This document shows, in pieces, positions 1,140 through 5,364 of a stretch of 64,000 nucleotides of DNA. The first letter of the stretch is position 1. Each line of letters starts with the position of its first letter. Below the pieces are notes generated by a model, which made no database searches, was not told the DNA's origin, and saw only the letters and a list, made by a program, of their open reading frames with translations. The translations under genes and the position numbers were made by a program. The stretch is from an uncultured Verrucomicrobia subdivision 3 bacterium (GTDB lineage: Bacteria; Verrucomicrobiota; Verrucomicrobiia; Limisphaerales; UBA11358), in contig CAIQKM010000108.1 in NCBI GenBank assembly GCA_903872345.1, forward strand, positions 1-64,000. Direction: 5' to 3'.

Positions 1140-1294
1140 TTCCGAGCCCGCCGCTGCCATTCCAAACTGGAAGTGGTTTTATGTGTTCTCTGTGATCTTT
1201 GCGGTTAAATGACGGACTACCTCATCTCCAACCGGCTCCGCAACCGCAACCCCATTGAATTCCTCGGCATCTGGGAGCGGCTCAACAACCCCGG

Positions 1295-1326
1295 TTTTAA
1301 TCCCATCGAATTCGATGGGATTAAAA
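1295..1326. repeat. Perfect 32-bp palindrome
   Basis: TTTTAATCCCATCGAA followed directly by TTCGATGGGATTAAAA is a perfect palindrome with no spacer, centred on an EcoRI-like GAATTC at 1308-1313. It lies inside the KilA-N remnant where the codons still spell the family's F-N-P-I-E-F-D-G-I-K segment. Confidence 0.85.
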
Positions 1327-1387
1327 AACAGGCGGGGCTGAATAGCTTCAAGCCAGTCTCGTCTATGCCAACGAAGCCGACCTGCTA

Positions 1388-1576
1388 GAGCAATGACAGA
1401 AATGATGTAGCGGCAGGCAGCGAGGATTTTTGGGGTTGGGCGAGGCTTTGGCGAAGGCGCAGGTTAAATAGAACCTTAAATAGAACCTGTAACTGAGCCG
1501 AAACGAAGCCCAACCCCAAAAAGACCGCTGTCGGCACGACTTGCAGCCTGCCGCTACAGCATTGCTGGAATTGCTC
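1388..1576. mobile_element. 189-bp MITE with 32-bp inverted ends and TA target duplication
   Basis: The ends GAGCAATGACAGAAATGATG... and the reverse complement of ...CAGCATTGCTGGAATTGCTC match at 28 of 32 positions when the flanking A is counted, including an identical GTAGCGGCAGGC inner block. TA at 1386-1387 and TA at 1577-1578 flank the element. Removing it restores the CTG CTA AAC GTG reading of the KilA-N family. TA duplication is typical of IS630/Tc1-mariner transposases, so this is best read as a non-autonomous derivative of such an element. No transposase gene lies in the window. A related solo end is at 691-717. Confidence 0.82.
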
Positions 1577-1883
1577 TAAACGTGGCCCTCTTTGGCCAGA
1601 CCGCCAGGCAGTGGCGCGACGCCCACCCCGACGCCGAGGGCAACCTCCGCGACCACGCCCCGCTGGAGCAGCTCGTCGTCCTGACCAATCTCGAAAGCCT
1701 CAACTCCGTGCTGGTCCGTCAAGGACTGTCCCAGCCGGAACGCCTGCTCAAGCTCAATGAAATCGCCATCACCCAGATGCGCTCGCTGCTGGCCGACCAC
1801 AATATCAAACGGCTGAAGTGATGGCCGCCCAATCGTCAATTCGCTCCGCCCCCCCCAAGGACTGAAAGTCCGTCATGTTATAG

Positions 1884-1949: not shown

Positions 1950-2324
1950 TCAACCAAGTATCGAGAGACACAACTTGACCCCTATGCTCAACTGGCATCC
2001 CATGCACGAAATGTCCTCCGACCAAGAGATGGCACGCAGCGAGTCCTTGCAGTCTGTGGTTACAAGTTTGGAGATTCGCACATCAACATCGAACTTGACC
2101 ATGCACTGCGTGAATCCCGAGACCTGACAATGGTCGTATTTTGGTCGGACGACACCTTGGATCTAACATTAAAGAATTGGCACGACGATGCTGCTGTTCG
2201 TGACCAAGTCTTGATCTACGGCAAACGCGGCTTTTGGCACGGCGACACCGTTGATTTAGCTACAGCCGATTTACCATGGTGGAAATTTGAAAACATTACG
2301 CGGTTACTCGGAGGTGAAAGATGA
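1950..2324 (+). pseudogene. SIR2-family protein, C-terminal stub (partner of HerA)
   Basis: In frame from about 1950 the translation reads T-K-Y-R-E-T-Q, then L-A-V-C-G-Y-K-F-G-D-S-H-I-N, and ends K-F-E-N-I-T-R-L-L-G-G. This is the C-terminal part of the SIR2-like NADase family (the G-Y-x-F-G-D-x-H-I-N segment is characteristic). An in-frame TAA at 1926-1928 and a repeat element lie just upstream. The N-terminal two-thirds of the Rossmann-type domain, with the catalytic His and the NAD-binding loops, is absent. Its stop overlaps the start of the HerA gene (ATGA at 2321-2324), the arrangement of SIR2-HerA anti-phage operons. The enzyme should be dead. A 64-residue product could start at ATG 2130. 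Confidence 0.75.
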
Positions 2325-4087
2325 GCACAGATCTACGCAATCCGAACGATACAATTGACAATCTCGCCATCGGCAAGATTATTGAAGTTGATGGTTCACA
2401 CATTGTTGCCGAACTTGAGCCAAATCTGTCTGAGCTTTCGCGCGTTTATGCAGGTGAGACGTATCCAATTGGCCAGTTCGGCTCGATTGTCAAAATCCAC
2501 TTCGGCCGGCGTCTCATCTTTGCTTTTGTCGGCCGCCTGCGCATGAAGGCGGAGTATGAAGCGGAACGTGGAATCACGCCGCAGGCTTCTGGCGACGAGC
2601 GCATCGTAGAAGCGGATCTCTTCGGCGAAGGAGAATGGGTTCTGGATTCTGCGGCTACCCCGCCCAAGTGGTCGTTGAAGTTTGAGCGCGGTGTTGCCAC
2701 ATATCCTCTCCCGCAGCAAACCGTTTACCTCACGCCCAAAGCCGAACTCCGCCATATCTACGGCCAGGGAAAGGGAAAGACGGTTCGCCTTGGGGAACAT
2801 GTCGGTTCGGGCGGAACACCCTGTTACGCTGAAATGAATGAGTTGCTTGGCAAGCACACGGCAATTCTTGGTTCAACTGGCGCAGGAAAATCAGGGGCAG
2901 TCGCAGCGATACTCCACAGCGTTCTTGAACGTGGGGCAACCGCTCCCCACCCAAAATGGCAGCCAACAATTATTATTCTCGACCCTCACAACGAATATGG
3001 AAGCGCTTTCCAGAATCACAAACGCCTCTCAACTGATGAAGGCACGTTGTCTCTGCCTTACTGGATGCTTAATTTGGACGAAACGATTGCCTTGTTTATC
3101 GGCAAAACTGAATACGCCGCGACGTCGCAATCCAATATCGTAAAAAACGCTTTACTCGCCGCGCGCCGAGCAGGCGCTCAGAAGATTCAAGGACTAGACA
3201 TCGCGAAATTGACGGTTGACGCACCTGTGCCCTACCTGCTTGGCGACCCTACTGGTTTAGATGAATTCGGAAAAGTGAATGGTGCAAATTACGATGTCGG
3301 TTTTGTTGGCGCGGTGAATGCTCAACGCCCAAACAACAGCAACAAAAAGGATCACGAAGATTACAACAAGGTCTTGAGAAAGTTGGATTCATTACTCAAA
3401 GATGGCCGCGTTCAATTCATGATGAAGCCATGGGACGGATTGGCCGACCCTCTTCCAGACGTTCTCGGACAATTGCTGGGCGGCGCGCAACCGTTACGCA
3501 TCGTCGATTTGTCGGGTGTGCCAAACGAAGTCGCTGGGACTGCAAGCGCGGCGATTGCACGAACACTTTTTCTGCTAAAGGTATGGCAAACCCCAGCGGA
3601 ACGAGAGGCCAGTCCCGTCCTGTTGGTGTGTGAGGAAGCTCATCGCTATGTGCCCAATGTCGGCGCAGCGCAATACGAAGCAGCTCAAGAAGCAGTGCGT
3701 CGGATAGCAAAGGAGGGCCGTAAATACGGGCTTGGGCTGCTCCTTGTCTCGCAACGGCCAAGTGAGGTTGAAGCGACCGTTCTCTCGCAGTGCAACAGTT
3801 GGGTGGTGCTTCGCATCACGAACGATGCTGACCGAGAACACGTTCGTTCCATCCTTCCGGACTCGATGGCTGGGTTGACTAAGATGCTGTCGGGATTGCG
3901 GCGACAGGAAGCGATTTTTGTTGGGCAGGCGGCTATGTTGCCATCGCGCATCATTGTGAGGACGCTTGCACAAGAACAACTTCCGAGGTCGCACGACATT
4001 GACTTCGACAGCGGATGGCAAAATGACGCGATGACCACGGAGCAGCTAAAAACAGTCGCCGGTCGTTGGCGTTACCAGCAACGATGA
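2321..4087 (+). CDS. herA: HerA-type ATPase of a SIR2-HerA defence pair
   Basis: This 588-residue HerA/FtsK-superfamily ATPase has an N-terminal barrel-like (HAS-barrel) region in residues 1-100. The Walker A motif G-S-T-G-A-G-K-S is at 184-191, and the Walker B-like V-L-L-V-C-E-E-A-H is near 433-441, followed by the conserved G-R-K-Y-G-L-G-L-L-L-V-S-Q-R-P block. HerA enzymes form hexameric DNA translocases. With SIR2 they form an anti-phage complex that depletes NAD or degrades nucleic acid after infection. The start overlaps the stop of the SIR2 stub by four bases, so the two were translationally coupled. The frame is full length and intact, but its partner is truncated, so it is probably an orphan. 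A housekeeping HerA role is less likely, since no NurA is nearby. Confidence 0.88.
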   Translation: MSTDLRNPNDTIDNLAIGKIIEVDGSHIVAELEPNLSELSRVYAGETYPIGQFGSIVKIHFGRRLIFAFVGRLRMKAEYEAERGITPQASGDERIVEADLFGEGEWVLDSAATPPKWSLKFERGVATYPLPQQTVYLTPKAELRHIYGQGKGKTVRLGEHVGSGGTPCYAEMNELLGKHTAILGSTGAGKSGAVAAILHSVLERGATAPHPKWQPTIIILDPHNEYGSAFQNHKRLSTDEGTLSLPYWMLNLDETIALFIGKTEYAATSQSNIVKNALLAARRAGAQKIQGLDIAKLTVDAPVPYLLGDPTGLDEFGKVNGANYDVGFVGAVNAQRPNNSNKKDHEDYNKVLRKLDSLLKDGRVQFMMKPWDGLADPLPDVLGQLLGGAQPLRIVDLSGVPNEVAGTASAAIARTLFLLKVWQTPAEREASPVLLVCEEAHRYVPNVGAAQYEAAQEAVRRIAKEGRKYGLGLLLVSQRPSEVEATVLSQCNSWVVLRITNDADREHVRSILPDSMAGLTKMLSGLRRQEAIFVGQAAMLPSRIIVRTLAQEQLPRSHDIDFDSGWQNDAMTTEQLKTVAGRWRYQQR

Positions 4088-4451: not shown

Positions 4452-5197
4452 TCATGGGTTTTGCGGCGCGGCGGTAAATCGCTGTTGCCAGATTTGAATG
4501 AGCGGCTGCCAGTCGGCGCGGTCGGCGGCTTCCAGCGCCTGAAAGTAGGTTTGCCGGTCGGCTTCGGATTCCGGGGCCAGCGTGACGCGGGGCAAATCCA
4601 GCCGACGGAGCAGTTCCAGCAGGAACAGGCGGATGGTGCGGCCGTTGAAATCCTGAAACGGATGGATGCTCAGGAACCGGCCTTCGGCAAAGGCCAGCAA
4701 TTCCAAGGTGAAATCTCCGGGCGCGGCGGCGGCCGCCGGCCAGCGCGCCAGCAGATCCGCCCCGTAATTCCGCATGAGGACGGGGACCTGATGCGGTTGC
4801 GGCGGTGTGAGATTGCCCACCCGCACTTCGATGCTCCGCCACCGCCCAGCCCAATCAGGCACGAGGTCGTGGCAAATCCGGCGGTGAAATTCAGCGGGGA
4901 GTCGTTCGTCAGCCGGCCACGAATCAAATTCCGACTGGTAAAGGGAGGCTTCCACGCGCAAGACGCGCTCGGCCAGCAGCGGGGCTAATTCGGAATAGGC
5001 AAGGACGCCGCGAGCGGTTTCGATGAAACGGGTGGCGCGATCTGGTCGAGTATTTCTTGCAGGCGGTGCAACTCCACCGGTTCCTGCTCGAAGGCCATGC
5101 TCTGGGCCACATCCTGGGGAATGGCCTGCCAGCGCCGGCGGAGTTTGTCCGCCGCCGGGAGTTGGCGCCATGCTTGGATGGTCTCGATCCAGTTCAT
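4452..5197 (-). pseudogene. fic: Fic-family AMP-transferase with a frameshift
   Basis: Two reading frames together make one Fic protein. The N-terminal part, M-N-W-I-E-T-I-Q, starts at 5197 and runs to about 5040. The rest, R-F-I-E-T-A-R-G-V-L-A-Y onward, is in another frame to 4452. The core motif H-P-F-Q-D-F-N-G-R-T-I-R (complement of about 4632-4663) is the H-P-F-x-[DE]-x-N-G-R-x-x-R signature, with F in place of the usual first G. An S-x-x-x-E pattern (S-M-A-F-E-Q) near residue 33 resembles the autoinhibitory helix. Fic enzymes transfer AMP or related groups to target proteins. The start overlaps the stop of a 55-residue frame by one base. The shift near 5040 breaks the gene unless it is a sequencing error. 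It is flanked by 123-bp direct repeats. Confidence 0.8.
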
Positions 5198-5364
5198 CAG
5201 CCATAAGTTACCTCATGCAAACGGATTTTCAAGCCAGGAGAGCGGCATTCGGCGAATTGGGCGGCATCGGGCCAAGGCACAACCGCCAGCGGCTGCCATT
5301 GGACAGAGGATTCTGGCAGCGGTTTCCCGTTTTCATCTTCCGCAGTGTGCGCGTAAAATTTCAC
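5197..5364 (-). CDS. 55-residue frame coupled to fic; N-terminus resembles Cas3 HD proteins
   Basis: A GTG start at 5364 follows an AGGGAAA ribosome-binding-like run, and the stop shares one base with the fic ATG (TGATG), so the two are probably cotranscribed. The first 27 residues (K-F-Y-A-H-T-A-E-D-E-N-G ... W-Q-P-L-A) resemble the opening of Cas3-type HD nucleases. The remaining 28 do not continue that family. It may be a fossil fusion or a small unrelated protein, possibly an antitoxin by position, although it does not look like known Fic antitoxins. No cas genes or CRISPR array accompany it. Confidence 0.35.
   Translation of the reverse strand: MKFYAHTAEDENGKPLPESSVQWQPLAVVPWPDAAQFAECRSPGLKIRLHEVTYG

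Follow-up and report, generated by a model that had tools for sequence, protein, structure and literature searches.

MITEs of bacteria are usually viewed as the relics of one transposon, with interiors of little weight. Among the closest described systems, RUP of Streptococcus pneumoniae is 107 bp long, has IS630-Spn1 as its proposed mobiliser, and belongs to a kind of MITE whose transcripts are described as long stem-loops (PMC2229807). Correia/NEMIS elements carry TA at their termini (PMC2229807), and both NEMIS and ERIC have been classed as MITEs (PMC3733652). Within the Verrucomicrobia, GTAG-tagged REP/REPIN repeats are described as enriched in O. terrae (PMC3733652).

Here we describe a MITE from an uncultured Verrucomicrobia subdivision 3 bacterium, located in a 64,000-nucleotide stretch of contig CAIQKM010000108.1 that is called the window below. 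The element lies inside the remnant of a KilA-N gene and represents the IS630 type within a group of MITEs built around one hairpin core. The features of the locus, with those of the core given as they stand on the structured strand, are as follows.

1211..1385, + strand: KilA-N remnant, 5′ part; its N-terminus is missing, and 293 bp are lost near 1350 compared with the homologue in genome G045
1386..1387, no strand: left TA, target duplication, read in the window sequence
1388..1576, + strand: 189-bp core-bearing MITE of type 1 (model R1, whose alignment includes the window copy: E 5e-43 at 178.6 bits when the window is searched)
1388..1418, + strand: left terminal inverted repeat, beginning GAGCAATGACAGAAATGATGTAGC...; 13-15/24 identical to four IS630 ends of G007 and G016
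1419..1525, + strand: conserved hairpin core, whose structured strand is the + strand of the window (model R2, from whose alignment the window copy was left out: 92.9 bits, E 2.4e-21; other strand 31.7 bits)
1425-1426/1523-1524, + strand: third tandem loop, a 2x2 loop
1427..1441, + strand: covarying inner stem, left arm; pairs with 1508-1522
1442-1444/1505-1507, + strand: G.A/A.A/G.G loop of the window copy
1453..1458, + strand: 5′ side of two internal loops that lie in tandem, opposite 1491-1496, with G.A/A.G in the majority of copies
1464..1487, + strand: 12-bp tandem duplication within the terminal loop that no other row of alignment A2 shows
1508..1522, + strand: covarying inner stem, right arm; pairs with 1427-1441
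1530..1545, + strand: unpaired, sequence-variable spacer from the core to the right end, with the highest difference between and within subfamilies among the regions compared
1546..1576, - strand: right terminal inverted repeat; 15-17/24 identical to IS630 ends
1577..1578, no strand: right TA, read in the window sequence
1579..1821, + strand: KilA-N remnant, 3′ part; 89% amino acid identity to the G045 homologue and 80% to that of G014, 92% DNA identity to G045

The insert at 1388-1576 is a MITE and a real miniature mobile element: it is short, it has terminal inverted repeats and a TA duplication, and several copies of it are dispersed in the genome. Its longest open reading frame encodes 50 amino acids from a GTG start (1385-1537, - strand), and it contains no transposase gene. 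The inverted arms (1386-1424/1540-1578) are 39 nt long and 85% complementary. The possibility of a chance palindrome was ruled out by the folding of the 193-nt stretch, which has a z score of −12.1 and was equalled by none of 200 shuffles. A preliminary description of this DNA had reported TA on both sides, a length of 189 bp, and 32-bp imperfect inverted ends. The two TA dinucleotides are present (1386-1387 and 1577-1578) and the length stands; the window copy measures 189 bp and not the typical ~177 bp because of the 12-bp tandem duplication at 1464-1487. The inverted ends are also real, but they match at 27 of 32 positions and not at 28.

The host gene owes the name KilA-N to the preliminary description and to homologous reading frames; at E 0.01, neither part of the remnant matches a Pfam family. 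The gene is a decayed remnant and not an intact gene. The insert aside, it is a pseudogene: where the G045 homologue has 293 bp in its middle part, the window has one base. The footprint of the insertion itself is exact. Six KilA-N homologues were found outside the genome of the window (G000), and four of these, all uninterrupted, were read at the site. When the insert and one TA are removed, the codons read D-L-L-N-V-A-L-F-G in the register of these four homologues, so that the L-L-N-V-A-L-F-G order predicted earlier is restored, and none of the four (0/4) carries the 189 bp as coding sequence. The codon at the insertion site is CTC in G045, G014 and G019, CTG in G031 and CTA in the window; the G045 homologue, for instance, reads CTGC-TC-AACG, and the target TA is found in none of the four.

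The neighbourhood of the insert has further features of its own. A perfect 32-nt palindrome, TTTTAATCCCATCGAATTCGATGGGATTAAAA, lies in the KilA-N coding sequence at 1295-1326. It occurs at the same codons in homologues with arms that vary (TTATGG/CCATAA in L201, AGGTG/CACCT in L392), as does the peptide. Among 54 homologous loci examined (L199-L203, L363-L409), the motif was present in 28, representing 18 distinct sequences; perfect arms of at least 11 were found in 19 of these 28, compared with at most 4 at 560 random positions. This is a covarying palindrome within a coding sequence. Just past the KilA-N remnant, Rfam places an Acido-Lenti-1 RNA on the - strand (1858-1915; 39.6 bits, cut-off 37), and genes for a HerA-type (DUF87) ATPase (2321-4087, + strand) and a Fic/DOC family protein (4452-5204, - strand) are near the insert.

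Further copies were found in G000, an assembly of 204 contigs that is 94.6% complete. Among the matches listed, at least 12 places hold the MITE: nine full-length copies and three pieces at contig ends, which may stem from fewer copies. Model R1 gives 24 matches in this genome, probably because the palindrome matches on both strands, as seen in the window. The nearest copy, on contig C112, is 91% identical to the window MITE, and TA is kept at both outer ends in seven of the nine full-length copies. A pattern for the ends (at most 3 mismatches) matched 22 times in G000, with no match for the reversed control. In the family, 29 of 49 genomes were matched by this pattern, the control giving one match each in four genomes, and R1 had matches at E <= 0.001 in 24 of the 49. 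The preliminary description had made its proposal depend on the existence of other copies with the same ends, and the at least nine full-length copies in G000, with more in the family, bear it out. A set of 64 pattern matches all lie in MAGs labelled Verrucomicrobia subdivision 3, Pedosphaera, Verrucomicrobia, Verrucomicrobiia, Limisphaerales or, in one case, ‘bacterium’. A wider spread in phages or plasmids found no support: blastn gave no match for the window element among phages and none for one type-2 element among plasmids.

Several elements depart from the common form. Two core-bearing elements of G022 (L076 and L077) are 388 and 453 bp long and have extra sequence in the middle. Four GAGC-ended elements of 103–116 bp in G005, G001 and G009 (L080, L081, L043, L064) have no match to the core profile at E <= 1 and are core-free relatives. 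In the window itself, a lone end-like sequence at 689-717, TGGAGCAATGACCAAAGTGATATAGCGGC, resembles the left end of the MITE and has no partner; with E <= 1 as the limit, no element is reported at this place by R1 or by R2.

Empty sites, which had been suggested as a check, were found at TA in a separate, unrelated repeat, but not in the KilA-N homologues. The repeat, TTGACACTGCCCCGGGTTAAATAG...CACCTCACCCCGGCC, is dispersed in G000 with 19 unoccupied matches (L149-L167), of which 16 have TA at the insertion place; the typical unoccupied site, of which four were read, is ...CCCCGGGT-TA-AATAG.... Two further copies of this repeat (L011 and L012) hold the MITE at TA. Compared with the unoccupied repeats, their right junctions are exact, while a few bases deviate on the left side. 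A single insertion may underlie both occupied copies.

An IS630-type mobiliser had been proposed from the TA duplication. Complete IS630s with GAGC ends are present in two congeners, G007 (1004 bp) and G016 (1003 bp). They encode a two-ORF transposase, and their ends read TA followed by GAGC...TGTAGC or ..TATAGC. The outermost 24 nt of these IS630s are identical to those of two MITE subfamilies of the host genome at 17-21 positions and to the ends of the window copy at 13-17 positions, whereas no more than 13/24 is reached by 1285 other TA-adjacent 24-mers taken from the window's + strand. A search for an IS630 with the same ends was thus successful in two congeners as regards similar ends, but not identical ones. 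Transposases of the GAGC type (>=63% identity) were found in G007, G011, G013 and G016 only, with one GAGC-type end each beside the transposase in G011 and G013. The other resolved loci among 30 DDE_3 loci scanned for ends have ends different from those of G007 and G016, and the ends of type T7 resemble the IS630s of G027 and G045.

The mobiliser was not found in the host genome. G000, as assembled to 94.6% completeness, has no match to the IS630 DDE_3 domain and, at E <= 1e-10, nothing related to the transposase of G007. Conversely, R1 has no match at E <= 0.001 in the four genomes with a GAGC-type transposase, and no such transposase was found in the MITE-rich genomes; transposase and MITE were therefore not seen together in one genome. 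In blastn comparisons, two MITE interiors had no match among 35 IS630 loci, and these loci contain no core. As such, the window MITE does not appear to have arisen from a GAGC-ended IS630 by deletion. The proposal of an IS630-type mobiliser retains the support of the similar-ended elements in G007 and G016 and of the TA duplication, but not that of such a transposase in G000, and insertion at TA with the help of an IS630-type transposase from elsewhere, in trans, is most likely.

Within the order Limisphaerales, which belongs to Verrucomicrobiota, R1 matches 105 of 320 genomes (24 in the own family) and 52 of 118 genera. Twenty R1 places were fetched and 17 of them read; 10 of the 17 have other ends around the same inner hairpin. 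The core is ~95 nt long, and model R2 finds it at E <= 1e-4 in 35 of 40 genomes of the order, all of which were picked for having R1 matches. In an even sample of 387 genomes across the phylum, 20 have it at E <= 1e-5, namely the own genome, one congener, 12 others of the class and six of other classes. A profile that uses sequence only, built from nine type-1 cores of one family, matched 66 of 80 loci outside type 1 at E <= 1e-3 and none of the 80 when reversed; the rate of 66/80 is biased because these loci had been found by models partly trained on type-1 cores. With the 20 phylum-level loci, the 9-core profile finds seven and a 25-core profile 18, and neither finds any reversed locus. By these profiles, the homology of the core is judged not to be an artefact of hairpin shape, and the reversed control carries weight here. 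The core thus apparently recurs across the phylum Verrucomicrobiota in MITEs with unrelated-looking ends. Titles and the starts of abstracts in the literature, within a scope that excluded subscription papers and preprints, yielded no description of core-bearing MITEs.

The structure of the core was examined in an alignment of 50 copies (A2), in which conservation is inflated because the pattern used to retrieve 33 of the rows itself prescribes some of the core sequence. Standard pairs make up 95.2% of the inner hairpin. Thirteen of its 33 pairs change on both sides, compared with a mean of 6.0 in shuffled alignments, none of 500 of which did as well, and with 2-5 in slid versions of the structure; in the R2 core model, 17 of 25 pairs show at least one compensatory change. 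Three 2x2 loops interrupt the stems. On the + strand they are tandem G.A/A.G mismatches in most copies and in two of the three loops of the window copy, where the second of the two loops at 1453-1458/1491-1496 is G.A/C.A; on the opposite strand the same loops would be pyrimidine mismatches. Among the 37 copies found by other means than the pattern, the G.A mismatches are held in 20-37, depending on the position.

These properties bear on the view that the element is an ordinary IS630 MITE with an incidental interior, whose arms stay paired by template switching or gene conversion. RUP, which is also of IS630 type, and other bacterial MITEs do have long stems (PMC2229807). However, arm-to-arm correction would be expected to remove mismatches, and the G.A loops persist amid covarying stems; furthermore, an incidental interior leaves the same core on dissimilar ends unexplained. 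We regard this explanation as already disfavoured and very improbable.

How dissimilar the ends are was assessed by clustering. The order yielded 92 loci with a core, 15 of which have no terminal repeat by a 16-mer rule, some due to a contig end. Of 20 phylum-level loci examined, 19 have repeats, and 17 of these entered the clustering together with the 69 order loci of at least eight words, the window and the G007 IS630, making 88 entries. Single linkage resolves these into 17 clusters, and none of 3000 shuffled pairs was linked. The pairs L254/L280, L259/L279 and L251/L262 each represent a single place that was retrieved twice. Since L251 and L262 are one type-1 place read at an offset, the number of clusters becomes 16. 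The clusters are dissimilar at the threshold used, and some of the ends may be distantly akin.

The target duplications differ as well among the end types, which we number T1-T14. A 3-bp TNA duplication is present at 25 of 34 readable loci of types T2 (7/9), T3 (6/12), T4 (6/6) and T8 (6/7), and a 2-bp TA duplication at 4/4 loci of T5 and 1/3 of T7. The TNA ends of T3 and T8 may be IS5/IS1031-like, a 3-bp TNA being the hallmark of that family. It is end sequence and duplication length on which we base the view that core-bearing MITEs would use different transposases. The placement of the core varies little by comparison: the distance from its start to the outer end of the element is 33-52 bp with a median of 40 at 56 loci of the order, and 30-40 bp at the 19 phylum-level loci.

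A tree of 79 cores, which are short sequences with bootstrap values that are not settled, groups them by end type, with 17 label changes against 53.8 for shuffled labels. Because ends mostly accompany their cores, switching of ends would be infrequent. The tree supports one putative switch, in which T5 cores, associated with TA, lie inside T3 cores, associated with TNA (support 95/98).

All end types might instead go back to one fast-diverging transposase lineage, with core and ends inherited together. The agreement between ends and cores on the tree, the narrow spacing from core to end, and an A/T-rich stretch ~13-17 nt in that is common to many ends are all in keeping with such co-inheritance. 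The division of the duplications into 2-bp TA and 3-bp TNA, the nesting of T5 in T3, and the presence within the genus of one IS630 set with T1-like and another with T7-like ends speak against it, and we consider a single lineage unlikely. That ends, duplications and hosts vary while the core and its spacing remain constant suggests instead that the core may act in cis as a module independent of the transposase.

Taking these observations together, we favour, with a probability of roughly 0.7, a reading in which a MITE of IS630 type was inserted and its hairpin core is a cis module shared by many families of ends. A non-autonomous MITE was inserted at TA, most likely by means of an IS630-type transposase supplied in trans, into a KilA-N gene of which a remnant is left today. 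Its interior is the ~95-nt hairpin core, which sits over the host's phylum between terminal repeats that belong to many dissimilar families; the GAGC ends of IS630 type are one such family. Acting in cis as a structured module, the core would help an element whose ends are recognised by a transposase to be copied or tolerated.

Whether such a module works as DNA or as RNA affects the reading of its structure. As RNA, the core would be part of transcripts that run into the MITE from its neighbourhood, in which the stable hairpin of the GA-rich strand would protect, terminate or buffer the transcript, so that hosts tolerate the elements. Several properties fit this proposal. The tandem G.A loops are confined to one strand in most copies, and the + strand of the window is the one with the more stable fold in 21 of 23 copies. 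An upstream ORF is oriented with the structured strand in 34 of 51 cases by rough ORF calls. The elements fall into short (162-228 bp) and long (270-289 bp) ones, and 17 of 28 long elements but no short one have a second core in the opposite orientation (E <= 1e-3); many long elements would therefore present one folded core from either direction of transcription. In the outer stem, G.U pairs exceed A.C mismatches (58:30, 48:25 and 22:15). However, the inner stem, which is common to all types, has no such excess, its G.U:A.C ratios being 12:10 and 17:17, and 6:12 in young copies of single genomes. For the elements, no Rfam 15 family was found above its gathering score in nine sources, the window included. 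One match in L269, to MIR5998, was dismissed, as it scored 39.8 bits against a cut-off of 180.

We consider action as RNA possible though doubtful. Pairing of the inner stem seems to be maintained at the level of lineages and not in every single copy. Because this pairing is kept across lineages and young copies decay with no preference for wobble pairs, the DNA level is slightly favoured, and action of the cis module as a hairpin or cruciform near the ends would be a little more likely.

A broader version of the cis-module reading, which we put forward as tentative, has the hairpin cassette as the unit that persists. It would acquire new ends from unrelated IS families, exert its cis function ~40 bp from the end, and have become phylum-wide by changing vehicles. 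Our guess is that new ends are acquired when one element inserts into the palindrome of another; a hint of this is L262, where a type-1 element is framed by a further inverted repeat. If the core is indeed common to MITEs with dissimilar ends, the interiors of such elements can be selected and can change vehicles, and the reason why some MITEs spread to high copy numbers becomes directly testable.

The described systems can now be set beside the window MITE. The IS630s of G007 and G016 share TA with it, and their ends are close to those of the two subfamilies of the host genome (17-21/24) and less so to those of the window copy (13-17/24); they differ from it in their length of 1003-1004 bp, their two-ORF transposase and an interior without the core. 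RUP resembles it, by description only, in being short, in its TA target and in its IS630-like ends, and differs in that the part of the description available to us mentions no core common to elements with other ends (PMC2229807). Correia/NEMIS and ERIC elements, again by description only, are like it in being small palindromic MITEs with transcripts that fold (PMC2229807). Finally, the REP/REPIN sequences share with it the form of palindromic repeats present in high copy number, from which the REPs differ by their described length of 20-40 bp (PMC3733652).
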